Source of the DNA: Bacteroidales bacterium
GTDB taxonomy: Bacteria; Bacteroidota; Bacteroidia; Bacteroidales; Prolixibacteraceae
DNA length: 64,000 bases
NCBI GenBank assembly: GCA_012729335.1
Contig: JAAYDJ010000017.1
Location: 62,001-126,000, forward strand
Direction of reading: 5' to 3'
The translations under genes were made by a program, and so were the position numbers. Each line of letters begins with the position of its first letter. Within the stretch, counting starts at the first letter, position 1. Under the pieces are notes generated by a model. That model had not been told where the DNA came from, made no database searches, and worked only from the letters and a program-made list of their open reading frames with translations. Of the stretch, positions 4,150-44,285 are shown one piece after another.

Positions 4150-4234
4150 GAGTTGTCGAAAATTTATCGATAACTTAGCGTTATAAATCAAGCCTTACGG
4201 GATGATACCAGCAGCGTTGGCCGGTGAGCCGAAG

Positions 4235-5566
4235 ATGACGGTGAATGAACTGAAGAAGTACCGGCTAAAGAAGAAGATACTCAGGCTTTTGTACGAGGAG
4301 GGTTCCTGCTCGGGGCCTGAGTTGGGCAAGCAGTTGGGGATAAGTTTACCCACGGCCCTGATATTGGTGAACGATCTGATCGGGGAAAAATTGGTGGTTC
4401 CGCGGGGAGCCGGGGTTTCGACGGGTGGACGGAAACCCTCGATGTACGGGCTTTCGGGTGATTCCCTCTATGTGATTGCCTGCGACATGGGGCGTTATTC
4501 GGCCAAGATGGCCCTTTTCAATGTCCATAACCAAAGGGTGAGTGCCCTGAGGTCAGTCGACACGCACATTGATGATCCGGAGCTGGTTGAGAAGCTCTAC
4601 CGGGCGGCCGAAGCGCTGGTGGCAGAGACGGGGATTCCCGCAGAGAAGATTGCCGGGGTGGGGGTAGACATGCCGGGGTTGGTCGACGCACACCAGGGCA
4701 TCAACTTCACCATTAAGGACCAGGCCAGGCAGCCGGTCAGGGATCTGTTGGGCAGGAGGTTTCAGAAACTGGTCTATGTTGACAACGATGCCCGGATGCA
4801 GGCCTTCGGGGAATACACTTTCGGAAAGGCACGCGGATGCCGGAATGCACTGATTGTCAACTGGAGCTGGGGTCTCGGTCTGGGAATGATACTAAACGGG
4901 AGGCTCTACGGCGGGACTACGGGTTTTGCCGGAGAGTTGTCCCACATCAGAATGGCTGACGACGGAGAGTTGTGCATTTGTGGCAAAAGGGGGTGCCTCG
5001 AAACCCTGGCCTCTTCCAATGCGATTCTGCGTCTGGCCCGCAAAGGCATTGCCGAAGGAAGAATCTCGCAGCTCACCCGTCAGTTTGCAGGCCGGCCAGG
5101 GGAACTCACCGTGGAACAGGTGATCGCCGCTGCCCGCCTTGGCGATGAATTTTCCATCTCTGTACTCTCGGAAACAGGCCTCGCCTTCGGGAAAGGCCTC
5201 TCCTACCTTATCCAGCTCCTCAATCCCGAGGTGATCGTACTGGGCGGCCCCGTTTCCAAGGCCAACCAATTTGTGCTCACCCCCATTCAGCAGGCCCTAA
5301 ACCGGTATTGCCTGGAACATATCCTGGGAAACACCACCGTAGTCACCTCCGACATGGACGAGGACTCGGGTCTTCTGGGAACGGCTTCCATGCTTTACCA
5401 GTTCCTCTTCTGTGACTTCCAAACGGCGGCTCCTCAGGGGTTGCCTGAAGGAATGTCCCTGCCGCCTCCTTCGGAAACCCCGTACAACCTCCCCGGTGCG
5501 CCCCTGGCGGTTCCGGAGGAGCATAAAGAGGCGATATCTTATATGAATACAGACATTCAACTCTAA
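4235..5566 (+). CDS. ROK-family transcriptional regulator
   Basis: A winged helix-turn-helix (roughly the first 70 residues) is followed by a ROK sugar-kinase-like domain. Visible are the VDNDARMQAFGE segment around the usual catalytic Asp and the zinc motif CICGKRGCLE (about residue 247). ROK repressors of the NagC/XylR type sense sugars or sugar phosphates. The gene ends 24 bp before the susC-like gene with no terminator between, so it probably heads the ROK-susC-susD operon and may regulate itself. The frame also allows an ATG at 4202; I prefer 4235 (MTVNELKKYR) because homologous HTH regions start close to this point. Its last 60 residues are a Pro-rich tail of unknown use. Confidence 0.88.
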   Translation: MTVNELKKYRLKKKILRLLYEEGSCSGPELGKQLGISLPTALILVNDLIGEKLVVPRGAGVSTGGRKPSMYGLSGDSLYVIACDMGRYSAKMALFNVHNQRVSALRSVDTHIDDPELVEKLYRAAEALVAETGIPAEKIAGVGVDMPGLVDAHQGINFTIKDQARQPVRDLLGRRFQKLVYVDNDARMQAFGEYTFGKARGCRNALIVNWSWGLGLGMILNGRLYGGTTGFAGELSHIRMADDGELCICGKRGCLETLASSNAILRLARKGIAEGRISQLTRQFAGRPGELTVEQVIAAARLGDEFSISVLSETGLAFGKGLSYLIQLLNPEVIVLGGPVSKANQFVLTPIQQALNRYCLEHILGNTTVVTSDMDEDSGLLGTASMLYQFLFCDFQTAAPQGLPEGMSLPPPSETPYNLPGAPLAVPEEHKEAISYMNTDIQL

Positions 5567-5590: not shown

Positions 5591-8500
5591 ATGCGAAAGG
5601 TTTTATTTATGCTGACCTTGTGCCTGGCCTTCTCAGTGAGTGCCATGGCGCAGTTTACCGTAACGGGAAAGGTTACGGATTCTGACGGGATGGGGATTCC
5701 GGGAGCCTCCATCCTTGAGAAGGGGACCACCAACGGCACTATTACGAGTGTGGATGGGGATTACACCCTTCGGATCTCTTCAGCCAACGCCACGCTGGTT
5801 TTCTCCTTTGTGGGCATGGAAACCCAGGAGGTGGCCGTTGCCGGCCGGCCTTCGATCGATGTCACCCTCAAGACCAGCGCCATTGGCCTGGGAGAGGTAG
5901 TGGTGACCGCCATGGGGGTGACCAAGGAAGCCAAGAAGCTAGGTTATGCTGTGACCCAGGTCGATGGGGAGAAGCTGGCCGAGTCGACGGTGGTCAATCC
6001 CGTGAATGCCCTCCAGGGGCGTGCCGCTGGGGTGGAAATCGCCCCCAGTGAAGGGGGGGCCTTCTCAGGTTCCAAGATCACCATCCGTGGTAATTCTACC
6101 CTGAAAGGCAACAACATGCCCATTTTTGTGGTAGACGGGGTCATCATGGACAACAACACCTCCGGGGGTTCCCAGTGGGGTGGTGTCGACTGGGGCAATG
6201 AACTCAAGAACCTGAATGCCGACGAATTTGAATCGGTGTCGGTGCTCAAAGGAGCTGCCGCTACTGCGCTTTACGGATCACGCGCCCTCAACGGGGCCAT
6301 CGTCATCACCACCAAGAAAGGGAAAGCCCGCAAGGACCTGGGAATTAAAATCAGCCAGCGTTTCAACGTAAAAAGCGTGTATGACGGTCCCGCTTTCCAG
6401 AATGTCTACGGGGAAGGTCCCATGCCGGGGTATGACACCAGCATGCCCGACGTCTTTGCACCCCAGCGCGACTTTGTCAAGAATGCCCAGGGTGAGAATA
6501 TCCTGCTCGGGTATTACGACGGCTGGGCCCCGTACAGTTATGGCCATAAGATGGACGGCAGCCAGGTGCGCGACTGGGAAGGCAACTGGATCAGCTACGA
6601 TCCCCAGCCCAACAACGCCATCGACGCCTATGAGACCGGGTATCAGTCCAACACGAACGTCACCCTCGACGGGGGTGGCGACAACTCCACCTTTATCATT
6701 TCCCTCTCCCATTTCGGGGAAAAAGGGACCTACCCCGGGAACAACTTCACCCGTGAGTCGGTTTATTCGAAGGTCACCCGTGACTTCGGCAATTTCCTGA
6801 CCACCGAACTGGGGATCAGCTATGCCAATTCGGCCCCGAAGAACCCGCCACAGGACCTGCTCAAATATTTCCTCGACCCGTGGCCCCGGAACTACAACAC
6901 CTCTTACTGGCGCACCCGCTACAAGGCAGCCCACGGCGGGATCCCGCAAAGCAACTACAACGATCCCGGCGTCAACATCCCGGGGGCCAATATCTGGTTC
7001 AGCATTTATGAGAACAGCTACACCCAGATCGAAGAGTCGCTCCGCCTCACCGGCAAGATGACCTTTAAGATCACCCCCTGGTTCAATGCCGTCCTCGACG
7101 GTTATGTCAACAACTATTACATCAAGTCAGAAACCAAGGAACTGGGGAACGGCTACCGCAATGCCGGCGGATATTACTCCCTGGGCCATACCCGCAAACA
7201 GCAGTATGACGGGAAACTGTGGCTCAACTTCTTCAAGAACTTCGACAACGGACTGGATGTCACCTTTTCCACGGTGGCCGAACACTGGGAGTCGGGCGAC
7301 AGCTACACCAGTGCCTGGACCAGTGGCGGGCTGATTGTTCCCGGCCAGTATTCGCTGTCCAACAGCAAAAACGAACCCGGCCAGAGCGCTTCCATCAGCA
7401 ATACCCGCATCCTCCAGTCGCTGATGTTCTTCTCTGACATCTCCTGGAAGGACCAGCTCTTTTTAAGCATCACCGGCCGTAACGACTGGTCGTCGACGCT
7501 CACCTATGCCAATGGCAGCGGAAACTTCAGCTACTTCTATCCTTCGGTCTCCCTGTCGTGGCTCTTCACCGAAACCTTCGAAATGCCCGAGTGGTTCGAC
7601 TATGGCAAGGTGCGTGCCTCCTGGGCCCATGTGGGTAACGACTATGCGCCCTATGCCATCAACCCCGGATTCAGCCGCACGGGAACCGTCCAGAGCTACA
7701 ACGGCGACCTGCCACGTTACAGCTTCAAGAACGAGCAGATGCCCAACCTCAACATCCGTCCCGAAGACAAAAAATCAATCGAGGTGGGCTTCGAGACCAA
7801 GTTCTTCAAGAACCGTCTGGGCCTTGACTTTGCCTATTACAAGGACAACACCTACAACCAGATCCTGGGCATTCCCGAGAACTACTACACGGGGGTTTCC
7901 AGCCAGCTGATCAATGCCGGGAACATCCAGAACCAGGGGATCGAAATCATGCTGAACACGGTGCCCGTGAAGGTCAACAACTTCAGCTGGTTCTTCAATG
8001 TGAATTTCGCCCGCAACCGCAACACCATCATTGACCTCTATGAGGGGATCACCGAGTACAACCTCTATGAAAGCTGGAACTACGGGAACACCCGTATTGG
8101 AACCCTGGCCATCGTAGGAGGCAACTGGGGAGAACTCTATTCCGACTCTGCCCCGGCCAAATGGAACAACACCGATGATCCCAACGATCCGCGTAACGGG
8201 CAGCCCATTCTCCGCTGGAATGCCTCACAGAGGGGTGGATATTACATCCGCAGCAATGTGAAGGAGAAAGTGGGTGACATGAACGCCGACTTCACCGGCA
8301 GCGTGCTGACTGGTTTCGAATGGAAAAACTTCCGCTTTGAAACCCTCTTCGATGTGAAAATCGGTGGCGACATCTCAACCTACACCGGCCGTTACGGCGT
8401 TGCCTATGGTTTGCTGGAATCGACCCTCGACAACCGCGACAAGGAACATGGCGGTTTCGAATGGACCACCAACTGGAACGGCAAAACCTATGACGACGGT

Positions 8501-8950
8501 TTCCTTCCCGAAGGGATCTTTGAAAAGGGGACCAAAGTGCAGATGAAAGACGCCAACGGCAATATTGTCACCAACGACATCAGCGGGATGACCTACCAGG
8601 AAGCTTACAGCAAAGGACTGGTAGACCCGGCACACGGCGCCTGGTGGCATTTCAAGAACAACTCCTGGGGTGGTGGCGTGATCAATGAGCATGTTCTCCA
8701 GGAAAACTCCTACATCGGCATCCGCCAGATGTCCCTCACCTACAGGGTACCCCAGAAATTCTGCTCCAAACTGAAACTGACCGGTGCCGACGTCTCCCTC
8801 TTTGGCCGTGACCTGGGATTCGTCTACAAAACGCTGGAAAACAACCTGCACCCCTTCAGCGTCAGAAGCAACGAAGCCGGTTCTGCCCACGAATGGAACC
8901 AGATTCCCTACACCCGCACACTGGGTTTCAGCGTCAACCTTTCCTTGTAA
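5591..8950 (+). CDS. SusC-like TonB-dependent outer-membrane transporter
   Basis: A 1119-residue SusC/RagA-family protein. A signal peptide ends near AMAQ (residue 21). Then come a carboxypeptidase-regulatory-like beta domain (about 22-105), a TonB-box-like stretch (LGEVVVTAMG), the plug domain (about 115-230, with the family signature SVSVLKGAAATALYGSRALNGAIVI), and a long beta barrel ending LGFSVNLSL. It imports oligosaccharides across the outer membrane using TonB energy, together with the SusD-like lipoprotein encoded 27 bp downstream. The glycan is not readable from the sequence; the neighbouring GH29, GH20 and PNGase suggest host-type glycans. Confidence 0.95.
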   Translation: MRKVLFMLTLCLAFSVSAMAQFTVTGKVTDSDGMGIPGASILEKGTTNGTITSVDGDYTLRISSANATLVFSFVGMETQEVAVAGRPSIDVTLKTSAIGLGEVVVTAMGVTKEAKKLGYAVTQVDGEKLAESTVVNPVNALQGRAAGVEIAPSEGGAFSGSKITIRGNSTLKGNNMPIFVVDGVIMDNNTSGGSQWGGVDWGNELKNLNADEFESVSVLKGAAATALYGSRALNGAIVITTKKGKARKDLGIKISQRFNVKSVYDGPAFQNVYGEGPMPGYDTSMPDVFAPQRDFVKNAQGENILLGYYDGWAPYSYGHKMDGSQVRDWEGNWISYDPQPNNAIDAYETGYQSNTNVTLDGGGDNSTFIISLSHFGEKGTYPGNNFTRESVYSKVTRDFGNFLTTELGISYANSAPKNPPQDLLKYFLDPWPRNYNTSYWRTRYKAAHGGIPQSNYNDPGVNIPGANIWFSIYENSYTQIEESLRLTGKMTFKITPWFNAVLDGYVNNYYIKSETKELGNGYRNAGGYYSLGHTRKQQYDGKLWLNFFKNFDNGLDVTFSTVAEHWESGDSYTSAWTSGGLIVPGQYSLSNSKNEPGQSASISNTRILQSLMFFSDISWKDQLFLSITGRNDWSSTLTYANGSGNFSYFYPSVSLSWLFTETFEMPEWFDYGKVRASWAHVGNDYAPYAINPGFSRTGTVQSYNGDLPRYSFKNEQMPNLNIRPEDKKSIEVGFETKFFKNRLGLDFAYYKDNTYNQILGIPENYYTGVSSQLINAGNIQNQGIEIMLNTVPVKVNNFSWFFNVNFARNRNTIIDLYEGITEYNLYESWNYGNTRIGTLAIVGGNWGELYSDSAPAKWNNTDDPNDPRNGQPILRWNASQRGGYYIRSNVKEKVGDMNADFTGSVLTGFEWKNFRFETLFDVKIGGDISTYTGRYGVAYGLLESTLDNRDKEHGGFEWTTNWNGKTYDDGFLPEGIFEKGTKVQMKDANGNIVTNDISGMTYQEAYSKGLVDPAHGAWWHFKNNSWGGGVINEHVLQENSYIGIRQMSLTYRVPQKFCSKLKLTGADVSLFGRDLGFVYKTLENNLHPFSVRSNEAGSAHEWNQIPYTRTLGFSVNLSL

Positions 8951-8977: not shown

Positions 8978-10723
8978 ATGAGAAATATGAAAAACAGATT
9001 GTTTAAAATATGCACGGTATTCACCTTAACCGCATTGTTACTGGTTAACTGTACCGACCGGTTCGCTGAGAAGAACCTCAATCCGAACGACATCAATGAT
9101 CCCGACCTTTCCCATCTCTTCACCAACGCGCTCTACAATACCGCCGGTGACGAGTATCTGCAATGGTTTTACAACAACAGCGTCTATTTCTGGAGGTTTG
9201 CCCAGATGACGGTTTCCCGTTCCGGGACCTCGGCCGACTTCAACAACACCGGCGCCCTGGGAGGCATTCCGCTTTACAAGGTGATGATTGACATGAAGGA
9301 GATCCAGAACCGGATCGACAACATGAAACCCGAAGACAAGGCGGTTTACCAGGCCTTCAGGGCGGTGACCGTCATTCCGGTGATTGAGCTGGCCATCAGG
9401 GCTGCCGACTGGCAGGGGAGTATGGTCTATTCCGAGGCGATCGATGCCCGCTACGGAGGCAACCTGACCCCGAAATTTGACACCCAGCAGGAGCTGTACG
9501 ATCTCTGGATCCAGCAACTTGACGAAGCCATCAACGTGCTGACCACGGCCAGCTCCGATCAGGTGAAACTGGGCAACCAGGATTTCATGTTCAAGGGCGA
9601 CTGGGAACTCTGGGCCCGTTATGCCAACAGTCTGAAGCTGCGTATTGCTGCCAGGCTTGAAGTGGCCGACAATGCGAAGATGAAGACCGTGCTCACATCC
9701 ATTGTAAACAAAAAAGGGAGTGATGGCAAACCGTTGCTGATCACCGAAGAAGCCCACCAGGCCATCTGGGCCCCGGGAGCCAGCGAAATGGGACCCGGCG
9801 GCACCAACTCGCTGTGGGTAGAGAACTATGCCCCCTCCAAGAACTTCTCGGCCTTCATGCGCCGGAACCAGGATCCCCGGTTGAGGTTATACTTCAGGGT
9901 CAATTCGCTGAGTGATGCCGCCATTGCTGCGCTGCAGGCCACCCCGGGGGTTAAGATCCCGAAATTTGCCAAGACCCCGGTCAACGAACCGTGGGACCGT
10001 TTGGTAGGTGGGCCGGTAGCCCCCGACAGCATGGGCATTGAGGACTTTTTCGGACCCACTCTGGTAGACGCGACCAACACCCAGTACAGCCGCCTCCCCA
10101 GAGTCGAGTACAATTTCATCAAACCTAAACAGGACGGCCGCGTGGGTGAATACCGCAATGTCGTGCTGGGAGCTCCTGAAGTGTGCCTCTATCTGGCCGA
10201 ATTCATCGAAAAAGGATATGTCTCCGGCGCCGGCACTGCGAAAGAGTGGTATGAAAAGGGGGTGACCCTTTCCCTCAAGAACATGGATAAGAAAGCCTCC
10301 CTGGCACAGATCCCCGATTACAGCACCCGCGGACTCAAAGCTGGTGAAACGGAAGCCCTCATGGCCAAAGATGATGTGAAATACATCGCCGGCGATGCCA
10401 AAAATAAAGAGAAAATCATTCTCCAGCAGATGGTGAACCTCTTTGACAACCCCTACGAAATGGTGGCCGTTGCCCGCCGCACAGGGTATCCCAAGAAAAC
10501 CAGCACGATCTGGGCCTGGGAACCCTACATGGCCGGCAATCAGGAGCTTAAGCTCCCGCGCCGTTTCCCCTGGGGCACCCCTTCCATCGAAAGCAACAAA
10601 GCCAACTGGGACGCCGCCACGGCCGCCCAGGGCTTCAAAGCCGACGACAACTACGGGACCGTACTCAACAGCCAGCGCGTATGGTGGGACAAAAACGCCC
10701 CCGATTACGGCCAGGGCAACTAA
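8978..10723 (+). CDS. SusD/RagB-like nutrient-binding lipoprotein
   Basis: A 581-residue lipoprotein whose signal ends in a lipobox (LLLVNC), so the mature protein starts at Cys near residue 25. The body resembles the SusD-like_2 group: an early NPNDIN motif, helical N-terminal part (TPR-like), and a C-terminal region with YEMVAVARRTGYPKK. It sits over the SusC-like barrel and captures glycan at the cell surface. ATGs at 8978 and 8987 are both possible; the first is given. A strong terminator closes the operon at 10741. Confidence 0.93.
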   Translation: MRNMKNRLFKICTVFTLTALLLVNCTDRFAEKNLNPNDINDPDLSHLFTNALYNTAGDEYLQWFYNNSVYFWRFAQMTVSRSGTSADFNNTGALGGIPLYKVMIDMKEIQNRIDNMKPEDKAVYQAFRAVTVIPVIELAIRAADWQGSMVYSEAIDARYGGNLTPKFDTQQELYDLWIQQLDEAINVLTTASSDQVKLGNQDFMFKGDWELWARYANSLKLRIAARLEVADNAKMKTVLTSIVNKKGSDGKPLLITEEAHQAIWAPGASEMGPGGTNSLWVENYAPSKNFSAFMRRNQDPRLRLYFRVNSLSDAAIAALQATPGVKIPKFAKTPVNEPWDRLVGGPVAPDSMGIEDFFGPTLVDATNTQYSRLPRVEYNFIKPKQDGRVGEYRNVVLGAPEVCLYLAEFIEKGYVSGAGTAKEWYEKGVTLSLKNMDKKASLAQIPDYSTRGLKAGETEALMAKDDVKYIAGDAKNKEKIILQQMVNLFDNPYEMVAVARRTGYPKKTSTIWAWEPYMAGNQELKLPRRFPWGTPSIESNKANWDAATAAQGFKADDNYGTVLNSQRVWWDKNAPDYGQGN

Positions 10724-10919: not shown

Positions 10920-12401
10920 ATGATGATTAAAAAAAGACTCACCCTGCTCCTGCTGCTGTTCTCTCTGGGGGTCCAGGCCCAGTTGGAACATGAAATGACC
11001 CCTTACACCTGGCCTGCCGATGAAAAAGTCTTGCAGAAACTGGAGGAGTGGCAGGATCTGAAATTCGGACTGCTCATGCACTGGGGAGCTTACAGCCAGT
11101 GGGGCATCGTCGAATCATGGTCCATTTGCCCCGAAGATTACGGCTGGTGCGAGCGAAAAAAGGGCTCTGATCCGGGCAATTACTTCACCTATAAAAAGGA
11201 GTATGAGAATTTGCAGCTCACCTTCAATCCGGTGGGATTCGAACCGGAGCGGTGGGCCAATGCCGCCCGGAATGCAGGCATGAAATATGTCGTGTTTACC
11301 ACCAAACACCACGATGGATTCTGTATGTTCGACTCCAAATACACCTCCTATAAGGTCACCAGTCCTGCCTGTCCCTTTCATGTGAATCCCAGGGCAAACC
11401 TCGCCCTGGAGATCTTCAATGCCTTTCGCGCCAAAGGCCTCTGGGCCGGGGCTTATTTCTCCAAGCCCGACTGGCATTCGGAGTACTATTGGGATCCTGT
11501 GTTCCCTCCGCTCGACCGCAATGTCAACTATGATCCGGAGACCTATCCCGAAAAATGGGAGAAATTTGTGGAGTTCACCCATAATCAGATCCTGGAACTC
11601 ATGACGGATTATGGGAAAATCGACATTTTATGGCTTGACGGGGGGTGGGTGAGCAAAAAGTCACCTGAGCAGGTCAGGAACAGTTATGCAGGCAAAGCCG
11701 GGGAAGCCAGGGGGGGGTTTCTCCGGAGCCGGACGGTTAACCAGGACATCCGTATGGATGAGTTGGCGGCGAAAGCCCGGGAGAAGCAGCCGGGGTTGAT
11801 TGTGGTCGACCGGGCAGTGGAAGGCCCCAATCAAAACTACCTGACTCCGGAAAATACCGTTCCGGAGAAGATGCTCCCCTACCCCTGGGAATCATGCATC
11901 ATCGCCGGAGGCGGCTGGTCATGGGTTCCCGATGCCCGTTTCATGACACCCCGGCAAGCCATCCACCTGCTCATCGACATCGTGGCCAAGGGGGGCAACC
12001 TCCTCTATAACATCGCCCCCGGGCCCGACGGCAAATGGCCCGAAGGGGCCTATACCCTTCTGGAAGCCATGGGCAACTGGATACAGGTAAATGGGAAAGC
12101 CATCTACGCTACCCGGGCTATGGCCCCGTACAAGTCAGGAAACATCTGCTTCACCCGCACCAAGGATTCCAAAACGGTATTTGCCTTTTACCTTCCCGGG
12201 AAAGAAGAGAACGCCCTTCCGGAGGAAGTGTCCATTGAGGGGTTCACCCCTGCTGAGGGCGCCAGGGTCTCCTTGCTGGGAGCCAAAGAATCCCTGAAAT
12301 GGAAGAAAACCTCAGAAGGATGCCGCATCTCCATTCCTGCGTCCCTGCGGAACAACCTCCCTTGCAGGGAAGCATGGACCTTCGCCTTTACGGTGAAATA
12401 A
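10920..12401 (+). CDS. GH29 alpha-L-fucosidase, secreted
   Basis: A 493-residue protein with a cleavable signal peptide (ends near VQAQ). The GH29 signature is clear: FGLLMHWG near the N terminus, KYVVFTTKHHDGFCMFDS, and the nucleophile Asp240 in DILWLDGGW. The C-terminal part (from about residue 400) is a beta-sandwich-like domain. It hydrolyses terminal alpha-linked fucose from glycans, probably in the periplasm or at the outer membrane. It follows the susCD terminator, so it needs its own promoter, which I could not identify; its position still ties it to the same utilisation locus. The acid/base residue is variable in GH29 and I cannot place it. Confidence 0.94.
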   Translation: MMIKKRLTLLLLLFSLGVQAQLEHEMTPYTWPADEKVLQKLEEWQDLKFGLLMHWGAYSQWGIVESWSICPEDYGWCERKKGSDPGNYFTYKKEYENLQLTFNPVGFEPERWANAARNAGMKYVVFTTKHHDGFCMFDSKYTSYKVTSPACPFHVNPRANLALEIFNAFRAKGLWAGAYFSKPDWHSEYYWDPVFPPLDRNVNYDPETYPEKWEKFVEFTHNQILELMTDYGKIDILWLDGGWVSKKSPEQVRNSYAGKAGEARGGFLRSRTVNQDIRMDELAAKAREKQPGLIVVDRAVEGPNQNYLTPENTVPEKMLPYPWESCIIAGGGWSWVPDARFMTPRQAIHLLIDIVAKGGNLLYNIAPGPDGKWPEGAYTLLEAMGNWIQVNGKAIYATRAMAPYKSGNICFTRTKDSKTVFAFYLPGKEENALPEEVSIEGFTPAEGARVSLLGAKESLKWKKTSEGCRISIPASLRNNLPCREAWTFAFTVK

Positions 12402-12543: not shown

Positions 12544-14064
12544 TTACTCTTCGGGCAGCACGGCCATTCTTTTCAGGTAGCTTTGTGACATTTTCACAAA
12601 ATCAGGAAGGTAATTGGAGGTAAACGCACAAACCGACACATCCTTCATCAGTTCCTCGGCCTTTTCAAATTCCCCGATCTGATCATACGCCAGGGCCAGG
12701 TCGAACTTTACGCATTGATTGGAGAGATCCGACTTCTGAAAATGGTTAACTGCACGCTGATACTGTTTTTGCCGGTAGCTGATGACGCCCATCAGGTAGT
12801 GGTAAACCTGTGACTTTCCCGGCTTCACACCGGGTTGAAGCAATAGGGCGTGTTCCTCTGCCATTTGGGAGGCCAGCGGGAAATTTTCAGAATTGATGGC
12901 CCTAATGCTTTTCACAAAGGCAAACATGGCGTCGACCGTTTCCGGGTCAGGGGGAAAGGATTCCAGGGTAAAATCCTTCTGCAGGCAGCAGCATTCATCC
13001 TCTCCGGCAAAGGGAGCGGTATATAAACCATGGCTATGTGCAATCATGGAGCAGCAGAAGCGGTGGTTGCCGTTCTTCCCCTTTGACGCCGCATTTTGGG
13101 CATCCAGGCCACTCGGGAGAGAAGCATGCATTTCCTGAAGTTCTTCCGCGGCCAGTTTCACATTACCAGAGAAAAAGAAGGAGACCAGGTTGTTGTTGGG
13201 CGACCCGATGAGTGATCCGCCGCCGTTAAAGCTCCTGGCCGTTTCAAAATCGCTGAGGGCATCGTCAAATTGTCCCAGATAGGAATTGATATACCCTCTT
13301 TTGGAAAATCCAATACCCGAGAGTGGATCCAGATGAATTGCAGCCGTGTAAGCCTTCAGGGCTTTATGAAAATCAATTTTTGCACGGCATACATCTCCCA
13401 CGGAGAGCAAGGCGATGGCTTCACCGGGCCGCAGCTTTGCAAACTCCTGCATGTTACTCTCAGCCAGGTCAAAGTCAATGGGCAGGTTGAAGAGCCAGGA
13501 AACAGCCAAAGCCCGGTATCCCAGAGGTGAACGGGGATCGGTCAGAATAGCACGGTGTGCCATCTCCCGGTAGAGATTAACCTGTTTCCGGAGCTGGTAT
13601 TCCCCCGCCAGGAGCAACAGTGCCCTGACATCCCCGGGATACAGGCCGGCCAGGGTTTTCACCAGTTCAAACCGCGTTTCAGGATTTTTGGTCAGCCAAG
13701 CCTGTTCAATCTCAATCAGCAGGTTTTCACCTTCACTGACGCTGGAACGGCGCTGAAAGGCCAGTTCCAGGTTGCTTTTCCATTCAGCGGCAGAACCGGC
13801 CAGATACGCCTTGTAAAGATAACCCAGAGCAAAACCGGGATCGGCTTTAAGTGCCTTATCCATCAGGCTACGGGCATCATCGACCCTGCCCATTTCATAG
13901 GCCTCCCGGCCTTCCGTAAAAGCCAGGTAAGCCTCTTGTGAAGAAGTCGTCACCGGGATTTCACCCTTTTTCTCTCCGGCCTCGAGGGAAAAAGGCAATA
14001 CCCACGCAAACAACAATGCCAGAGGCAAAACATACCACAGACAAATCAAATGTTTTCTGAACAT
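12544..14064 (-). CDS. TPR-repeat protein with a Cys/His cluster, exported
   Basis: A 506-residue protein with an N-terminal hydrophobic signal or anchor (about residues 7-28) and tetratricopeptide-like helices throughout. The clearest TPRs are at about residues 45-80, 235-290 and 420-460. In the middle (residues 337-360) is an unusual stretch with CC at 337-338, His at 343 and 345, and CCC at 358-360, which could bind a metal. The rest resembles protein-interaction scaffolds; no enzyme motif is seen. It lies between two glycosidase genes on the same strand as the GH20 gene, 339 bp downstream of it. A role in the glycan locus is only suggested by position. Confidence 0.8.
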   Translation of the reverse strand: MFRKHLICLWYVLPLALLFAWVLPFSLEAGEKKGEIPVTTSSQEAYLAFTEGREAYEMGRVDDARSLMDKALKADPGFALGYLYKAYLAGSAAEWKSNLELAFQRRSSVSEGENLLIEIEQAWLTKNPETRFELVKTLAGLYPGDVRALLLLAGEYQLRKQVNLYREMAHRAILTDPRSPLGYRALAVSWLFNLPIDFDLAESNMQEFAKLRPGEAIALLSVGDVCRAKIDFHKALKAYTAAIHLDPLSGIGFSKRGYINSYLGQFDDALSDFETARSFNGGGSLIGSPNNNLVSFFFSGNVKLAAEELQEMHASLPSGLDAQNAASKGKNGNHRFCCSMIAHSHGLYTAPFAGEDECCCLQKDFTLESFPPDPETVDAMFAFVKSIRAINSENFPLASQMAEEHALLLQPGVKPGKSQVYHYLMGVISYRQKQYQRAVNHFQKSDLSNQCVKFDLALAYDQIGEFEKAEELMKDVSVCAFTSNYLPDFVKMSQSYLKRMAVLPEE

Positions 14065-14403: not shown

Positions 14404-16710
14404 TTAGTTCACGACAATCTCGCTCACGAAGAGGTGAGCGCCCTGGCCTGCGCCTGCGTGTCCTTCGGGGCAGGTACCCAGATTGCGGGCCGTAACCCTG
14501 ACGTACCTCACATTTTCAGCTCTCTTTTTAACCCTGAAATCGTAGAGGATTCTTTCGGCCGCGGTGACGGGAATGGCATGGGTAGCCGATCCCAGCCGCC
14601 GGAAATGCTCCCCGTCGGGTGACACCTCGACCACTACCCCGGCAGGCATGAAGATCCAGGATCCGATATCCTGTATCGCATGGGTTTCCACCGCTCTGAC
14701 GGAGGTGGGTTGCCCCAGGTCAATGGTGGCCACCAGGTCGTCCTTATAATAGCCTTTCCAGTTGCCGTCGTTGAAATTGGTGGATCCTTTCACGCCGTCG
14801 ACGAGGGTATAGGCTCCGCTGCCGTCGTAGCGGCTGCTGTTGGGATAGCGGGTGTTCACCGGGCAGGCTACAGCCTTATGGAGAAAAAACGGTCTGCTGA
14901 GGGGGGTAGTCACACTTTTCCCATCGACAAAAACGGCCGCCCGGGCGGTAACGCTCCGGGTCACGGCCACAGGCCCGGTGTAAAGAGGTGATACGGGGCC
15001 CGGAACGGATCCGTCAAGGGTATAGCGGATCTCGGGATGGCTCACCTCAGTGGTGAATTCGACCTCCAGGCTTTTGGTCTCAGGGATCAGCCGGGGATGG
15101 GCTTTCACCTGGAAGGCGCTGCGGGCATAGGGAATGCCGGCTAGCGCATAGCGGGCATACTGGGTTTTCATCCGGGAGGAGAAATCGTCCCAATCGCGGC
15201 TCTCCTTCGGAGACCAGACCACCTCAGCCAGGGCCGCCAGCCGCGGGAACATCATGTATTGAAGGTGTTCGGGCGTGGAGATGAACTCGCTCCAGTGGTT
15301 GGCCTGTGCCCCCAGGATATATTGGGCTTCCTCCCCGGTCAATGCCGCCGGCACGGGCTCAAAATCATACACCTTCTTCAGGGTGATGTTCCCGCCGAAT
15401 GCCGGTGGCTCCAGGGAGGGATCCCCCTGGTAGTAATCAAAATAGCAGTGTGAAGTCGGGGTCATCACCGCGTAATGCCCCGATCTGGCGGCTGCAATGG
15501 CCCCATCCTCACCCCGCCACGACATCACCGACGCCTCCGGGGCCAGTCCGCCCTCCAGGATCTCATCCCACCCTAAAAGCTTCCGGTTATGCTTGTTCAG
15601 GAACTTCTCCATCCGCGTGATGAAATAGCTCTGGAGTTCATGTTCGTCCTTTAAACCCTCCTCTTTTATTCTATTTTGACAAAGCGGGCATCGCTTCCAT
15701 TCGGTTTTATCGGCCTCATCCCCGCCCACATGAATAAAAGTGGAAGGGAAAAGTTCCATGGTTTCGGTCAGGACATCTTCGAGAAAATGAAAAGTCTCCT
15801 CTTTCCCGGCACAGAAAATATGGGTGATGGGCCATACGCCGCCAGGGGATACCCCCAGGTTTTCACCTGTGCAGGAAAGCGCGGGATAGGCGGCCAGGGC
15901 AGCCATCGCATGAGCAGGCATTTCAATTTCGGGGATGATGGTCACATGGCGCTCCTGCGCATATTTCACCAGCTCACGCACCTGTTCCTGGGTGTAAAAA
16001 CCACCGTAAGTGGCTTTCTCCCCCGGCTTCTGCAAAGGCCGGCTGTTCCAGTGGAGATCTTCACGATCAACGCGCCAGGCTCCCACTTCGGTGAGCCTGG
16101 GGTACTTTTTAATTTCGAGCCGCCACCCCTGGTCGTCGACGAGATGCCAATGGAAGACATTGATCTTATGGGCGGCCATCTGGTCAATCAGCGGAAAAAG
16201 GGATGCAAAGGGCATAAAATGGCGTGACACATCCACATGAACACCGCGGTAAGGAAACCGGGGATAGTCGATGATCACAGCCGCAGGTACTGCTGCGGGG
16301 CTCTCCCCGGCCATCTGCCGCAGGGTCTGCACCCCATAGAAGATCCCGGCAGCGGTATTGGCCGATATGAGTATCTTCTGGGGAGTAATCTTCAGAAGAT
16401 ACCCCTCGGTTCCGGTCAACCGGTCATTAGGCTGGTTGAGCTGCAACCTGATCACACCGTTCTCGGGAGCGGAACCCGACACCTCCGTCTCCAGGGCAAA
16501 CCCCAACACCGGTTCCAGCATTTTCACCGCCATCACGGCTTCCTGTGCCAGGGCACCATCATATCGGATAACCGTTTTCCGGCTGAGGGAAAACTGCCCT
16601 TCCCCTCTGACCACCGACGCAGGCAGGGGAACCAGATCAAACGGTCCTGCCATCAACGGACCACCCATGATGAGAAGCCCTATTATCCAGAATAACAATC
16701 GGAATTTCAT
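14404..16710 (-). CDS. GH20 beta-N-acetylhexosaminidase with discoidin-like tail
   Basis: A 768-residue secreted exo-enzyme that removes terminal beta-GlcNAc or beta-GalNAc. After a signal peptide (about 1-21) come the GH20b accessory domain (about 25-150) and the catalytic barrel (about 155-510), with the catalytic Asp331-Glu332 pair in HVGGDEADK. A chitobiase C-terminal-like domain (about 535-605, RYTLDGSVPG) and an F5/8 type C (discoidin-like) domain (about 625-768) follow; the last probably binds glycan. The substrate-assisted mechanism using the N-acetyl group is known for GH20. It fits with the fucosidase and PNGase nearby. Confidence 0.94.
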   Translation of the reverse strand: MKFRLLFWIIGLLIMGGPLMAGPFDLVPLPASVVRGEGQFSLSRKTVIRYDGALAQEAVMAVKMLEPVLGFALETEVSGSAPENGVIRLQLNQPNDRLTGTEGYLLKITPQKILISANTAAGIFYGVQTLRQMAGESPAAVPAAVIIDYPRFPYRGVHVDVSRHFMPFASLFPLIDQMAAHKINVFHWHLVDDQGWRLEIKKYPRLTEVGAWRVDREDLHWNSRPLQKPGEKATYGGFYTQEQVRELVKYAQERHVTIIPEIEMPAHAMAALAAYPALSCTGENLGVSPGGVWPITHIFCAGKEETFHFLEDVLTETMELFPSTFIHVGGDEADKTEWKRCPLCQNRIKEEGLKDEHELQSYFITRMEKFLNKHNRKLLGWDEILEGGLAPEASVMSWRGEDGAIAAARSGHYAVMTPTSHCYFDYYQGDPSLEPPAFGGNITLKKVYDFEPVPAALTGEEAQYILGAQANHWSEFISTPEHLQYMMFPRLAALAEVVWSPKESRDWDDFSSRMKTQYARYALAGIPYARSAFQVKAHPRLIPETKSLEVEFTTEVSHPEIRYTLDGSVPGPVSPLYTGPVAVTRSVTARAAVFVDGKSVTTPLSRPFFLHKAVACPVNTRYPNSSRYDGSGAYTLVDGVKGSTNFNDGNWKGYYKDDLVATIDLGQPTSVRAVETHAIQDIGSWIFMPAGVVVEVSPDGEHFRRLGSATHAIPVTAAERILYDFRVKKRAENVRYVRVTARNLGTCPEGHAGAGQGAHLFVSEIVVN

Positions 16711-17480
16711 GGTATGTATTTTTTTAGTTGAAAAATTCCTTATCCTTTATCACATCGGTCCCTCCGCGAATCTTAAGCTTCCAGACGCCCCAGGTTCCGG
16801 GAAGGTATTTCTCATGTACAATCTTGTCAGGCCAGGACCACATGTTTCAAGCCATCGTGCCGCTCATATCAGCCAAGCGTCATTTGTCTCAAGCCAGCGT
16901 ATCAGGAATCAAACCAAACGTATACTTATGGCAGGCCAGCGTCACAGTGTTAAGCCTGGCTCACCCTTATGGCAGGCCCGCGTCCCGCTCATGTCAGTCC
17001 ACCGTCACCGTGTTAAGCCTGGCTCAACCGTATTTCTGGCCAGCGTCCCGCACATCAAAGAGCAGTGGCTAAATGTAGGAAAATTAAAAGGATCAGGCAA
17101 TGACCAGGCTCCTTCCCTGTGGCCTGGAAAATGAGTATCTTGGCCCTCCGTTCCGGGCCGCAGGGAGCGCGTGTGCGTCACCGGAGAGCGCAGGGTGGTC
17201 CTCAGCGGCTCCATCCTGCAGGAGGATTTTTCAGGAAAGAAGTATGCGGGGGATCTTACGGCTTCGATGATGTGGGAAAACGAATTAACGGCACCAAAGG
17301 CGATACAAAACAATGGAAAGTCGCATGGTGCTTCGACCACATAAGGACATGCATATTTGCTCCATGCGAAACGAAGTTCGGCGGAGCACCGCGGAGCCAA
17401 TTCCATGGGCGTGAAGCACATCAACTGGCTTCATCTTGAAATACAATTGAAGAGCAGGTCATAAACAAACAACTATACAA
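16711..17480. other. 770 bp gene-free spacer between GH20 and PNGase genes
   Basis: The first part (16836-17066) is a degenerate 62-63 bp repeat array, listed separately. The rest (17067-17480) shows no convincing gene. One frame from about 17137 to 17342 reads like protein (for example VVLSGSILQEDFSGKKYAGD) but has no start and is closed upstream by a stop, so it may be a relic or chance. The PNGase promoter should lie near 17400-17480 but I find no clear box. Confidence 0.5.
16836..17066. repeat. Degenerate tandem array, ~62 bp unit, about four copies
   Basis: Copies begin near 16836, 16879, 16941 and 17004. The last two are the most alike, sharing GTGTTAAGCCTGGCTCA and a GCGTCCCGC segment, with a 63 bp offset; the step from 16879 to 16941 is 62 bp; the first copy lacks about 20 bp. 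Copies have many substitutions, so the array is old or loosely constrained. It codes for nothing convincing. Confidence 0.7.
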
Positions 17481-19286
17481 ATGAATCTTATGAGAACAAG
17501 CGTGGTGAAAACGGTGCTCCTTGTGGTGCTGTGGGTATACGGATATACGGGAGCCGGTCAGTCCCGGGTCAAAGGGGACGCCGTAAGGGTGACCTACCGG
17601 CAGGTGGTCAATGGCCAGGATGGGCGTCGCGGGGCTAGTGCAGTGCTGCTGGCCGGCAGGGAGATCTCGGAAGTGCGCAGTGGCCGTCAGGGGCAGCCGG
17701 GATCGGGGCGCCCCCCGGAAGAGAAGGAAATTCTCGACCACCGCAACAAAATGGCCTATCAGATGGCCACCATAGCGGCTGAAGCCAGCGCATCATCAGG
17801 AGCAAATGATCTGGAAACCGCCGCGAATGGGGGTGGCCAGAGGGGCGCTACCCGTTTCCACATCAAAACCCCTTTCAGCGGTTTTCCTGAGCTCACCCTC
17901 ACCGGGGAGAAAGAGACCATTCTGGGCTATGCCTGTGAAAAGGCGACCACTACCCTGCGGAGCAACAGCATTGAAATCTGGTTTACGCGTGACCTTCCTT
18001 TCCGGGGAACTCCCCAGATGGCTTATGGGATCCCCGACGGACTGGTCCTGAAGATCGTCCGTAACCGGAATTTTGCCCTGGAGGCCGACACGCTGGTTTT
18101 TACCGGCGAGGAGGATGTTCCCGTGCTGCCCGAAGATCCGGGGAGGGAAGTCGATCAGGCCCTTTACCGCCATCTCATCACCGAGAACCTGATCACCACC
18201 ATCGACATCTTCCAGGATGAACAGATCAGCTGGGGCAACGAGATCCGCAATCCGGAGGGGGAGGTGCTGAATGAGACCTATAAATATGCCGGAGGAACGG
18301 TCATTCTCAAAAAGGTGGCGCTTCCCGAAGCCGCCCCGTGGGACCAGGTTTTCGCCGAACTCCTTCAGTACTCCAACGGAGATGCCTATGACCGCACCGG
18401 GACAGTTTTCATGATTCCGGAGGGGGGAAAAACCTCCTTCCTGGAGGCTCTGCGTGACGGCATTGACATGGTCCCCTACTTCACGGCGCGCAACGGCAAG
18501 AGCTACCAGGGGATGACCGCCACCGGGGATTACCTTCCCCCGGTGGAGCTGGTCCGGTTTTTCACACCCTTCGGAGTCAGCCATTTCAATGAGCAGGTGA
18601 AGGTCTACGGCCAGGTATGGGAGGAAGCCGCCTGGTATAAGCAGGAGGTCACCGACCTGCAACCCCTTCTGAAGGGAGAGGTGTGGATGGGTGTCTTCAT
18701 CGGCAACTATGACAAAGGAGGGCATAAGGTCAGCCTGAGGCTGAAGTATTACCCCGGGTCGCCGCAACCCCGGGAGGAACGGGAAAACCGGGGTCCCGCC
18801 CTCTGGGTGAAGCCCCTTTTCAACACCTTGAATATCATGGAGATGGCAGGCCAGAACTACGGCACGCTCTTTGACACCGACTCCCTCACTGTAGAATTTG
18901 AAGTTCCGGAGGGGGTCAAAAGCCTGAAACTGCGCTATCTCACTACGGGTCATGGCGGCTGGGGCGGCGGCGATGAATTCAACCAGAAGGAAAACCGCAT
19001 CTTCATCGACGGGAAGCAGGTATTTCAGATCACCCCCTGGCGCACCGACTGTGGAACCTGGAGGAAGTACAATCCTGCTTCGGGCAATTTCTGGAACGGA
19101 ATCACCTCCAGCGATTACAGCCGGTCAGGGTGGTGCCCCGGCAGCGCCACCGATCCCTATTTCGTGCCGTTGGAAAACCTGAGCCCCGGGCGGCACACCC
19201 TGAAAGTGGCCATCCCTCAGGGTGCCCCCGAAGGAGGCAGCTTCAGCGCCTGGTGCATCTCGGGCCTCCTGACAGGAGAATACTAA
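17481..19286 (+). CDS. PNGase F-type peptide:N-glycanase with GLPGLI-like N-terminal domain
   Basis: A 601-residue exported protein (signal about 1-27). Residues about 30-225 resemble a GLPGLI-family domain (GYACEKATTTL, then an IWFT motif and GIPDGLVLKI in place of GLPGLI). Residues about 265-600 match the two jelly-roll halves of peptide-N4-(N-acetyl-beta-glucosaminyl)asparagine amidase F, including SRSGWCPG and TPWRTDCG. Asp304 in AYDRTG aligns with catalytic Asp60 of PNGase F, and Glu499 in GGGDEF with Glu206; I could not confirm an equivalent of Glu118. The enzyme cleaves whole N-glycans from asparagine. An extra N-terminal bowl-like domain is known in PNGase F-II/BF0811-type enzymes, and this front half may be that. 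No type IX sorting tail is visible. Confidence 0.87.
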   Translation: MNLMRTSVVKTVLLVVLWVYGYTGAGQSRVKGDAVRVTYRQVVNGQDGRRGASAVLLAGREISEVRSGRQGQPGSGRPPEEKEILDHRNKMAYQMATIAAEASASSGANDLETAANGGGQRGATRFHIKTPFSGFPELTLTGEKETILGYACEKATTTLRSNSIEIWFTRDLPFRGTPQMAYGIPDGLVLKIVRNRNFALEADTLVFTGEEDVPVLPEDPGREVDQALYRHLITENLITTIDIFQDEQISWGNEIRNPEGEVLNETYKYAGGTVILKKVALPEAAPWDQVFAELLQYSNGDAYDRTGTVFMIPEGGKTSFLEALRDGIDMVPYFTARNGKSYQGMTATGDYLPPVELVRFFTPFGVSHFNEQVKVYGQVWEEAAWYKQEVTDLQPLLKGEVWMGVFIGNYDKGGHKVSLRLKYYPGSPQPREERENRGPALWVKPLFNTLNIMEMAGQNYGTLFDTDSLTVEFEVPEGVKSLKLRYLTTGHGGWGGGDEFNQKENRIFIDGKQVFQITPWRTDCGTWRKYNPASGNFWNGITSSDYSRSGWCPGSATDPYFVPLENLSPGRHTLKVAIPQGAPEGGSFSAWCISGLLTGEY

Positions 19287-19338: not shown

Positions 19339-19755
19339 TCACTCAGGGGATTCCATCCATGCGGAGAGGATCTCTCTGACCCGCACCGACAGTAGTGACG
19401 CCTTTCCATCCTCTTTCCGGGCACACCCTACCCTGATGACTGCACGGTTGACCGTCAGCCCCTTCTCCTCCCTCATCTCCCCCTCAAAGGTGATGCGTGC
19501 ACCGGTCACCATTTTGATCCGGATGACCACCACCACCTCCTGATCATAACGCAACGGATGAAGATAACGGAGCGTAGCCTCCGTGACCGGGAAGATAAAC
19601 CCTTCCCGCTCCACTTCGACGTAAGGTATACCCAGATGACGGAAGAGTTCCCAGCGTGCATTCTCATACCACCTCAGATAGTTGGAATGGTGCATCAGAC
19701 CCATCTGGTCGGTCTCGGCATAGGTTACCCGCTGGCGGGTCTCAAAAATGGCCAT
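19339..19755 (-). CDS. Acyl-CoA thioesterase, YbgC/FadM-like hotdog fold
   Basis: A 138-residue single hotdog domain. The signature of 4-hydroxybenzoyl-CoA thioesterase-like enzymes is near the N terminus: YAETDQMGLMHHSNYLRWYENAR-type motif at about residues 11-33, with the catalytic Asp in ETDQMG. These cytoplasmic enzymes hydrolyse acyl-CoA or acyl-ACP thioesters; the exact acyl chain cannot be read. It is monocistronic, convergent with the PNGase gene and divergent from the Omp85-type gene. Length is normal for the family. Confidence 0.9.
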   Translation of the reverse strand: MAIFETRQRVTYAETDQMGLMHHSNYLRWYENARWELFRHLGIPYVEVEREGFIFPVTEATLRYLHPLRYDQEVVVVIRIKMVTGARITFEGEMREEKGLTVNRAVIRVGCARKEDGKASLLSVRVREILSAWMESPE

Positions 19756-19783
19756 GGTATTTTATCATCTGCGTTTCACCCCA

Positions 19784-19791
19784 CAAAGGTA
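19784..19791 (-). promoter_or_regulatory. -7 box of the thioesterase gene
   Basis: On the minus strand this reads TACCTTTG, a full match to TAnnTTTG, 28 bp before the ATG. No clear -33 element. Confidence 0.5.
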
Positions 19792-19885
19792 ATCGCTTTC
19801 GCCCTTCGCAGAATGATGAACCTTGGGTAGGATTCCCTTTTAAGGGTTGAAAAGTGCGGCATGTTCCAATGGATTGTTTTTTTTC

Positions 19886-19893
19886 TATCTTCG
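19886..19893 (+). promoter_or_regulatory. Possible -7 box of the Omp85-type gene
   Basis: TATCTTCG differs at one position from TAnnTTTG and lies 67 bp before the ATG, just after a run of eight T. Confidence 0.35.
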
Positions 19894-19960
19894 GAAGCAA
19901 TAAAACCAAAGGCAATTCTTTCACAAACGGCCTGTAAAAAGCCACTAATTCTTTAAAATT

Positions 19961-21289
19961 ATGAAGAAAACAGTCGTTTTTTCGATGCTCATGCTGATAT
20001 TCTTTGGGGTGGGTGCCCAGGAGAAGGAGATGGTGACCAAGACAGGGTGGAATTTCGGCGCCCTTCCGACCATCACCTTCGACACCGACCTGGGGTTCCA
20101 GTACGGTGCCCTGGTCAATCTGTACAATTATGGAGATGGAAGCCGGTTCCCGTCTTACAACCACTCCCTCTATTTTGAAGTTTCCCGGTTCACCAAGGGA
20201 AGCGGCATCAACCGTTTCTACTACGATTCCGACAGGTTGATCAAGGGGTTGCAAACCTCAGTCGATGTGAGTTTTCTCTCCGACCAGGCTTATGACTTCT
20301 TCGGCTTCAACGGGTACGATGCCGTCTACCAACCCGACTGGATCGACGATGAGTTGGAAACACCTCCTTACAAAACAAGGATGTTTTATAAGTATGACCG
20401 GAAATTATTCCGCTTCAAGGTCGACCTCCAGGGGAAACTGGCCGGAGACCATTTCCGCTGGATCACCGGCTGGAATTTCCAGAATTTCAAAATCGCGGAA
20501 GTCAATCTGGACAAACTCAATAAGAACAAGGAGGGTGACGAGGTTTTACCTGAAGTCGACGGCTTGTATCAGCTTTACCAGGACTGGGGCCTGATCAGCG
20601 GTGACGAGGTTGACGGCGGTTTTGTACCCACCTTCAAGGGGGGACTCGTTTTTGACACCCGTGACAACCGGCCCAATCCCATGAAGGGAATGTGGACCGA
20701 AGCCGTGGTGGAAGCCTCCCCGAAAATTCTCGGGGCCGAGAGTTCCTTCGCCAAGCTGAGCCTGATCCACCGGCAGTATTTCACACTGGTGCCCCGCAAC
20801 CTCTCCCTGGTATACCGGCTGGCATACCAGACTACCCTCGCCGGAGACGTGCCCTTCTATTACCAATCACAGGTGATTACCTCGATTCTGACGGGGGCCC
20901 TCTCTGAAGGGCTGGGCGGCGCCAAAACCCTGCGCGGAGTGCTCCGCAACCGCGTCGTGGGCGACGGTTTCTTTTACGGAAACCTGGAAGCCCGCTGGAA
21001 ATTCGTCCGCTTCAACTTCATTAAAAACAACTTCTACCTGGGTCTTAACGGTTTCGCCGACTTTGGCCGCGTCACCAAAAAGATAGATTTTACCTTGCCT
21101 GCAAATCTCGGGACCTACAGCAAAGCCGATTTCTTCAAGGACGACGCCGAGAAATTCCATACTTCCGTGGGGGCCGGGTTGCGTATCGCCATGAATGAGA
21201 ATTTCGTGATTGCCGTCGACTACGGCCGCGCCCTTAACGATCAGGATGGCAAGTCAGGCATGTATATCGGCCTGAACTACCTATTCTAG
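19961..21289 (+). CDS. Omp85/BamA-family outer-membrane barrel protein
   Basis: A 442-residue protein with a signal peptide (ends near GVGAQ) and a surface-antigen (D15/Omp85) beta-barrel domain. The late GGAKTLRGVLRNRVVGDGFFYGNLEARWKF-type region (about 310-345) corresponds to the conserved LRGY/VGG and EYR motifs of the family, and the chain ends in Phe, typical of outer-membrane proteins. There are no POTRA repeats before the barrel, so it is not BamA itself; it resembles the short two-to-no-POTRA Omp85 proteins of Bacteroidota whose role is unclear. It stands alone, and its stop codon overlaps the first unit of the 8 bp repeat array. Confidence 0.85.
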   Translation: MKKTVVFSMLMLIFFGVGAQEKEMVTKTGWNFGALPTITFDTDLGFQYGALVNLYNYGDGSRFPSYNHSLYFEVSRFTKGSGINRFYYDSDRLIKGLQTSVDVSFLSDQAYDFFGFNGYDAVYQPDWIDDELETPPYKTRMFYKYDRKLFRFKVDLQGKLAGDHFRWITGWNFQNFKIAEVNLDKLNKNKEGDEVLPEVDGLYQLYQDWGLISGDEVDGGFVPTFKGGLVFDTRDNRPNPMKGMWTEAVVEASPKILGAESSFAKLSLIHRQYFTLVPRNLSLVYRLAYQTTLAGDVPFYYQSQVITSILTGALSEGLGGAKTLRGVLRNRVVGDGFFYGNLEARWKFVRFNFIKNNFYLGLNGFADFGRVTKKIDFTLPANLGTYSKADFFKDDAEKFHTSVGAGLRIAMNENFVIAVDYGRALNDQDGKSGMYIGLNYLF

Positions 21290-44125: not shown

Positions 44126-44285
44126 GCGCGTGTTCTGATGAATAACAAACGGTAAGATCCCCGGAATATTGCAGCCTGCTGAAAGCCCCCGGAGCGTGCC
44201 CACCATCCCTGCAAATTTAAAAGGAATTGGAATGGAACGCATTAAAATATGAATATCCTGAACAATAATGATCGGCCGAATTAGT

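Follow-up and report, generated by a model that had tools for sequence, protein, structure and literature searches.

This locus raises the question of which enzyme its 601-residue protein represents and what the domain in front of the catalytic part does. The window, namely the whole 64,000-nucleotide stretch that was analysed, derives from a Bacteroidales bacterium of the Prolixibacteraceae (assembly GCA_012729335.1, contig JAAYDJ010000017.1). The gene is a genuine single open frame with an ATG start (Table 1), and the ORFs in alternative frames were taken as chance. In Pfam, PF09112 at residues 240–423 (E 7e-53), PF09113 at 459–597 (E 2e-49) and PF22252 PNGase_F-II_N at 137–204 (E 4e-20) all match above their curated cut-offs. 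PF09697 Porph_ging (E 0.12) and DUF4412 (21.1 bits for a cut-off of 21.6) remain below theirs. NCBIfam yields a single match with E up to 1, namely GLPGLI (TIGR01200, residues 137–206, 52.7 bits for a cut-off of 50). The best PDB sequence match is 7zgn (E 5e-146), whose PDB name is "Glpgli family protein", and the PNGF-II entries 4r4z/4r4x match at E ~1e-136. An AlphaFold2 model of the protein, made from 41 sequences (mean pLDDT 81.5), superposes from residues 28/32 to 599/601 on 4r4z (Z 42.5, rmsd 4.8, 521 residues) and 7zgn (Z 42.3, rmsd 3.8, 520 residues). 3ks7 aligns, structurally or by sequence, only from residue 237 or 266; in the PDB sequence search the matches of 3ks7 and 4qhb start no earlier than residue 266 or 268. 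The catalytic domain matches and the full-length superposition thus bear out the reading as a PNGase F-type enzyme made in an earlier note. PF22252, TIGR01200 and PF09113 have one match each in the window's genome, all of them this gene, so that no further copy was found with these profiles. The protein is a new one within a known enzyme family; the enzyme itself was to be expected and the fold assignment of its front domain is the useful part.

The active site identifies the subgroup. Asp304 and Glu499, which the earlier note had named as catalytic acids at the right positions, are invariant in a 54-protein alignment that comprises the window protein, all 12 other NBL-PNGase loci from the PF22252 search and 41 of the 43 relative loci (L067 was left out for its broken frame and L068 for its uncertain start). 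According to passages of PMC9522356, type II PNGases carry a glycine at the position of Glu118 of PNGase F, creating a pocket that accommodates core alpha1,3-fucose, and a second glutamate replaces Glu118 (E419 of PNGF-II in a legend, Glu418 in the text). The window protein has both residues: Gly408 and Glu454 map to chain residues 351 and 390 of 4r4z, which with an offset of 29 become exactly 380 and 419. The only one of the 54 proteins without the glycine is L080. Since this signature is present, the protein is assigned by its sequence to type II PNGase F (PNGase F-II family). The third catalytic acid had been missed in the earlier reading because Gly408 sits at its place and Glu454 takes its role. 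Two close homologues that have no bowl-like domain, L091 and L096 (2 of the 39 PF09113 matches without a PF22252 match), display Asp at position 408 and Tyr at 454.

Table 1. Features of the window (positions of the whole stretch) and fusion genes of other loci (positions within each locus)
Feature	Position	Strand	Basis
ROK-family regulator (NagC/Mlc-like)	4202..5566	+	NCBIfam, neighbour profile search
SusC/RagA-type TonB-dependent transporter	5591..8950	+	NCBIfam, neighbour profile search
SusD-like lipoprotein	8978..10723	+	Neighbour profile search
Alpha-L-fucosidase, GH29 type	10920..12401	+	PF01120
TPR protein	12544-14064	-	
GH20 beta-hexosaminidase, in divergent orientation to the PNGase gene	14404..16710	-	PF00728
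Type II PNGase F gene (601 aa; coordinates include the stop codon)	17481..19286	+	Pfam, NCBIfam, PDB matches
Signal-peptide-like start, residues ~1-26, without Cys	17481..17558	+	Sequence; helix 3-25 in model
Bowl-like/GLPGLI domain, residues ~32-226, predicted LolA-superfamily-like fold	17574..18158	+	Profiles, model
GLPGLI profile match, residues 137-206 (GIPDGLVLK 183-191)	17889..18098	+	TIGR01200; PF22252 137-204
Linker helix, residues 226-237	18156..18191	+	Model
Catalytic part, residues 240-597	18198..19271	+	PF09112, PF09113, structure superposition
Asp304, catalytic acid, 54/54; aligns with D246 of the 4r4z chain	18390..18392	+	Alignment, structure
Gly408 = G380 of PNGF-II, core alpha1,3-fucose pocket, 53/54	18702..18704	+	Alignment, 4r4z mapping, passages of PMC9522356
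Glu454 = E419 of PNGF-II, replaces E118 of PNGase F, 54/54	18840..18842	+	Alignment, 4r4z mapping, passages of PMC9522356
Glu499, catalytic acid, 54/54; aligns with E436 of the 4r4z chain	18975..18977	+	Alignment, structure
Omp85-family protein, downstream of the PNGase gene	19961-21289		
GLPGLI-like + redoxin/AhpC-TSA fusion	L099:1059-2267		
GLPGLI-like + redoxin/AhpC-TSA fusion, paralogue in the genome of L099	L124:1441-2718		
GLPGLI-like + redoxin/AhpC-TSA fusion, further genome	L125:1069-2286	-	

The front half had been read as GLPGLI-like and tentatively equated with the bowl-like domain of PNGase F-II. The first point agrees with the TIGR01200 score of the window protein and the second with its PF22252 match and with the superposition of its predicted structure on 4r4z and 7zgn. 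The comparator put forward for the bowl, BF0811, was not the right one: it belongs to the group 1 PNGases (3ks7), which have no bowl-like domain according to a passage of PMC9522356, the right ones being PNGF-II (4r4x, 4r4z) and B035DRAFT_03341 (7zgn). In the model of the window protein, blocks of residues 121–220 reach pLDDT 84–96 and the loops 72–75 and 106–120 are partly below 50. The curated profiles cross over between enzymes and unfused proteins. Among the matches listed from 296 genomes of the phylum, PF22252 recognizes both PNGases and stand-alone frames, mostly of ~220–330 aa; neither PF22252 nor TIGR01200 has a match in 14 control genomes. The two stand-alone proteins that were scanned, from L067 and L088, exceed the cut-offs of PF09697, PF22252 and TIGR01200 alike. 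Four homologues scored with TIGR01200 straddle its cut-off of 50, with L040 (55.2) and L072 (68.8) passing and L043 (49.1) and L075 (43.7) below. The literal letters GLPGLI are absent from the window protein, where another motif is found instead (Table 1), but the curated score does not need them, and the namesake motif also varies in some of the stand-alone members scored with TIGR01200, e.g., L019 and L029.

For an independent test, ten sequences without any PNGase among them served to model L088, a stand-alone GLPGLI protein of 235 aa. The model is moderate (mean pLDDT 57.8, residues 63–119 and 198–235 below 50) and AlphaFold2, with which it was built, may have learned 4r4z. Its top PDB match is the PNGF-II bowl domain (Foldseek E 4e-6; Z 12.0, rmsd 4.1, 140 residues, chain 1–177), and the comparison with 7zgn gives Z 11.1, rmsd 4.7 over 143 residues. 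A home-made profile of 24 stand-alone GLPGLI sequences picks up the front domain of 53 of the 54 PNGases (not L071), and a bowl-domain profile picks up 23 of the 24 stand-alone proteins. Note that there is some circularity in the home-made profile, since 16 of the 24 sequences in it (L015–L031 without L017) had come from the PF22252 search; the case for domain identity rests instead on the cross-over of curated profiles and on the structure test. Because these profiles cross over and the L088 model best matches the PNGF-II bowl, the bowl-like domain of PNGase F-II and GLPGLI are, by profiles and predicted structure, one domain of which the bowl is a divergent form.

The nearest fold relative of this domain is predicted to be the half-barrel of the LolA superfamily. 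The front domain of the window protein (residues ~32–226 of the model) matches 2yzy (Z 9.2, rmsd 5.1, 140 residues), VioE (Z 8.9, rmsd 7.1, 154 residues), EPDR1 (Z 8.6, rmsd 6.1, 154 residues), RseB (Z 8.4, rmsd 5.2, 127 residues) and LolA of six species (Z 7.2–8.1, rmsd 4.9–7.5, 130–143 residues). Individual Z values are 8.1 for LolA of H. pylori, 8.0 for LolA-LolB of X. campestris, 7.8 for LolA of P. aeruginosa, 7.5 for LolA of E. coli and 7.4 for MucB; these structures, together with 2yzy, VioE, EPDR1 and RseB, cover 123–154 aligned residues at rmsd 4.9–7.1. With the L088 model, the matches that follow the bowl domains include VioE (Z 8.6, rmsd 4.9, 126 residues), 2yzy (Z 8.4), RseB (Z 8.1, rmsd 3.7, 117 residues), MucB (Z 8.1), P. 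gingivalis LolA (Z 7.0, rmsd 4.7, 127 residues) and LprG (Z 6.0). 2yzy is termed only "uncharacterized" in its PDB entry and we take it to be a member of the superfamily. Values of Z 5–9 and rmsd up to 7.5, obtained with predicted models only, are middling by the tool's own scale and single matches of this order are unconvincing alone; the argument comes from the coherence of the match list. No LolA-type model is among the sequence matches of the window protein (Pfam E up to 10, NCBIfam E up to 1), and members of the superfamily share very low identity with each other. The top non-PNGase Foldseek match of the L088 model is LolA3 of P. gingivalis (9tp6, E 9e-4), a protein whose function is still open according to a passage of PMC13103446.

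A connection between GLPGLI, the bowl and LolA was not found in the literature searched. GLPGLI occurs in the passages found there only as an annotation or domain name. The 2015 PNGF-II structure paper of Sun et al. lies outside that search. In a passage of PMC9522356 (2022) the bowl-like domain is called structurally unique, known from two proteins and of unknown function, and in one of PMC12381499 (2025) its role is still called unknown. LolA, VioE and EPDR1 are described as a common fold with a hydrophobic pocket in passages of PMC6363788 and PMC6608618, two EPDR1 papers in which terms for PNGase F-II do not occur.

The generality of the module among enzymes was assessed with PF22252 in 296 genomes, with at most 11 candidates scored per genome; 150 matches were listed and more exist. 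Frames under 340 aa account for 135 of those listed and are, judged on frame length only, too short for a second enzyme domain. The other 15 frames, of at least 340 aa, are 13 PNGases (559–611 aa, all also matching PF09113), an unfused GLPGLI protein whose 367-aa frame is extended upstream (L100) and a GLPGLI-like/redoxin fusion (L099). The TIGR01200 matches listed include no frame above 351 aa, the PNGases scoring too low to appear there. GLPGLI as a frequent enzyme module was rejected on these counts: judging from the sequences, its enzyme fusions are rare among the matches listed and consist of PNGases and the weakly matching redoxin fusion. The proposal of the earlier note that GLPGLI is a general carrier for secreted enzymes consequently survives weakly, with the 13 PNGases and the one redoxin fusion speaking for it and the 135 short frames against. 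A second enzyme class, redoxin/AhpC-TSA, is nevertheless joined to a GLPGLI-like module in three genes from 2 of the 244 genomes of the bacterial family searched (Table 1). Their redoxin or AhpC-TSA domains are found at E 5e-17 to 2e-21 and carry CGPC or CAPC motifs. PF22252 is weak in the fusions (20.1, 17.5 and 27.8 bits for a cut-off of 27.6), and TIGR01200 gives 21 bits in L099 for a cut-off of 50.

The surroundings of stand-alone GLPGLI genes were inspected in 18 regions taken around high-scoring TIGR01200 matches (L101–L118). In 13 of them a gene on the same strand, 10–241 bp away, codes for an outer-membrane-type protein of ~890 aa that is related to the outer-membrane-type protein of L067; the five regions that have no such gene all come from one genus. 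Its length and CarboxypepD_reg-like start (27.3 bits for a cut-off of 32.2) suggest an outer-membrane barrel, and no barrel model matched it in the Pfam/NCBIfam scan. In a control with the PNGase loci, L067 set aside, the partner gene was found at none of the 42, nor near the PNGase of the window, and it accompanies one of the seven GLPGLI genes on viral contigs, some of which are short. Its absence near the PNGase in the window and in 42 of the 43 relatives, from five of the 18 regions and from six of the seven viral cases weakens the idea of docking at the outer membrane.

Several further observations concern these genes. Eight consecutive GLPGLI frames, two of them short, lie beside an outer-membrane-type gene at L108:4807-12077, a local amplification of the family. 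In Candidatus Limimorpha caballi the PNGase homologue frame ends after 293 aa and a stand-alone GLPGLI gene is present in the same locus (L067:9674-10552 and 19596-20450); a zinc-finger Pfam match in this locus was taken as chance. Distant GLPGLI/DUF4412-like proteins are encoded a few kb from the PNGase genes of two ruminant-gut Bacteroidales (L044:16056-16763 and L046:17360-18085; home-made profile E 3e-7 and 1e-6). GLPGLI genes also occur on IMG/VR contigs (L083–L086, L088–L090), either as prophage cargo or as host flanks of prophage calls. A search of the viral contigs with three single stand-alone GLPGLI proteins gave nothing. Of seven stretches located with a motif pattern, six encode GLPGLI proteins; a second pattern brought no further stretch, whereas L090 came from a third.

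The PNGase gene of the window has its nearest relatives in Prolixibacteraceae, the closest being that of UBA1413 (L040), 67% identical in the best segment. Gene context was compared in two of the 43 relatives. L040 has the order ROK-SusC-SusD-GH20-PNGase-Omp85, with no fucosidase gene between SusD and GH20, and L043 has, of the window's neighbour set, only the Omp85 gene among the seven neighbours searched. A 63-bp tandem repeat in two copies (83% matches) is found between the GH20 and PNGase genes of the window, at 16928-17055. A Peptidase C25 protein of 1158 aa, encoded at 40766-44242 on the minus strand, is presumably of the gingipain/PorU kind and would then suggest a type IX secretion system in the genome. 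In some Bacteroides, according to passages of PMC9522356, group 2 PNGase genes also have SusC/D pairs and GH29 genes in their vicinity, which makes an N-glycan utilisation locus the natural reading here as well: from its gene content, the PNGase is probably part of a small locus of this kind, together with the ROK regulator, SusC/SusD, the fucosidase and GH20.

Taken together, the protein is very probably an exported type II PNGase F whose GLPGLI front domain, LolA-like by predicted fold, is dispensable for catalysis and most likely serves for anchoring at the outer membrane. The catalytic part would cleave the first GlcNAc-asparagine bond of N-glycopeptides by means of Asp304, Glu454 and Glu499. 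Gly408 would leave room for core alpha1,3-fucose, so that core alpha1,3-fucosylated N-glycans of plant or invertebrate type would be likely substrates. The signal-peptide-like start points to export, with no sorting-signal match in NCBIfam for export beyond the periplasm, and the enzyme would be periplasmic. The front domain would hold it there at the outer membrane through a hydrophobic ligand or a barrel partner. This is the weakest step of the proposal; the predicted fold and, by analogy, the neighbourhood of the stand-alone genes would be compatible with a domain that anchors the enzyme or binds a ligand at the outer membrane. Dispensability for catalysis agrees with the truncation of the PNGF-II bowl domain, which according to a passage of PMC9522356 (citing its reference 11) changed neither activity nor specificity. 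The bowl domain is usual but not universal in type II PNGases: the group 2 PNGase of B. coprophilus is reported to have none (same source), which speaks against the proposal. It is conceivable, if rather speculative, that GLPGLI proteins at large, a family of Bacteroidota, belong to the LolA superfamily as one of its branches and bind, in the periplasm, either a hydrophobic ligand or the outer-membrane protein of the adjacent gene. Type II PNGases and the rarer redoxin fusion would then have captured the module, which would bring a soluble enzyme to the outer membrane on its inner face, the site at which glycopeptides enter after import.

Alternatively, the front domain may bind no ligand and aid folding or export, or keep the catalytic face outward. 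The unchanged activity of truncated PNGF-II speaks for this possibility, as does the suggestion by the authors of PMC12381499, in a passage of that paper, that accessory modules could orient the catalytic module. The carrier-like half-barrel and the recurrent partner gene of the stand-alone members suggest binding, although not in the PNGase itself, and leave this explanation a minority one that deserves to be kept in mind. It is improbable that the front domain binds carbohydrate or glycopeptide and feeds substrate to the active site, a role akin to the substrate binding evoked in the earlier note; the same truncation speaks against it. For other PNGases, a passage of PMC12381499 proposes modules that lie over the active site and bind substrate, but another has the bowl-like module of PNGaseRz modelled away from the active site; in addition, the five Pfam matches of the window protein (E up to 10) include no carbohydrate-binding family, and the pocket of the fold relatives is hydrophobic. 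Type I specificity, with no room for core alpha1,3-fucose, is highly improbable. In its favour, the substrate range within type II varies, since EMTypeII is reported to act also on mammalian N-glycans (passage of PMC9522356) or to require core fucose (passage of PMC12381499). Against it stand the type II signature, Gly408 with Glu454, and the homologues without front domain (L091 and L096, 2 of 39), which carry Asp and Tyr instead.

The main interest lies in the link between two poorly understood entities, the bowl domain of PNGase F-II and the GLPGLI family, which are one domain by profiles and predicted structure and LolA-carrier-like by predicted shape. If true, the GLPGLI family gains roles that can be tested, namely lipid binding, a function of the groove and contact with the neighbouring outer-membrane-type protein.

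Among known systems, the LolA superfamily (LolA, LolB, RseB/MucB, VioE, EPDR1, LprG) resembles the front domain in its predicted half-barrel over ~105–155 aligned residues (Z 5–9), a likeness drawn from predicted models and without sequence match. Within the GLPGLI (TIGR01200)/Porph_ging (PF09697) family, the window protein exceeds the cut-off of the former but not of the latter, and its 601 residues contrast with the ~220–330 aa of most stand-alone frames among the matches listed. The PNGase B035DRAFT_03341 of Phocaeicola (Bacteroides) massiliensis (7zgn) is a group 2/type II enzyme with bowl domain, 44% identical over 520 residues; its gene is adjacent to one for a GH92 mannosidase (passage of PMC9522356), whereas the neighbourhood in the window holds SusC/D, fucosidase and GH20. 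PNGF-II of Elizabethkingia meningoseptica (4r4x, 4r4z) differs in that the front part of the window protein is longer, the catalytic part being preceded by 236 residues (the median of the homologue set is 201), and has the low-confidence loops mentioned above. The two enzymes share the same architecture, the Gly380/Glu419 pair and the bowl-like domain, with 40% identity over 521 aligned residues.
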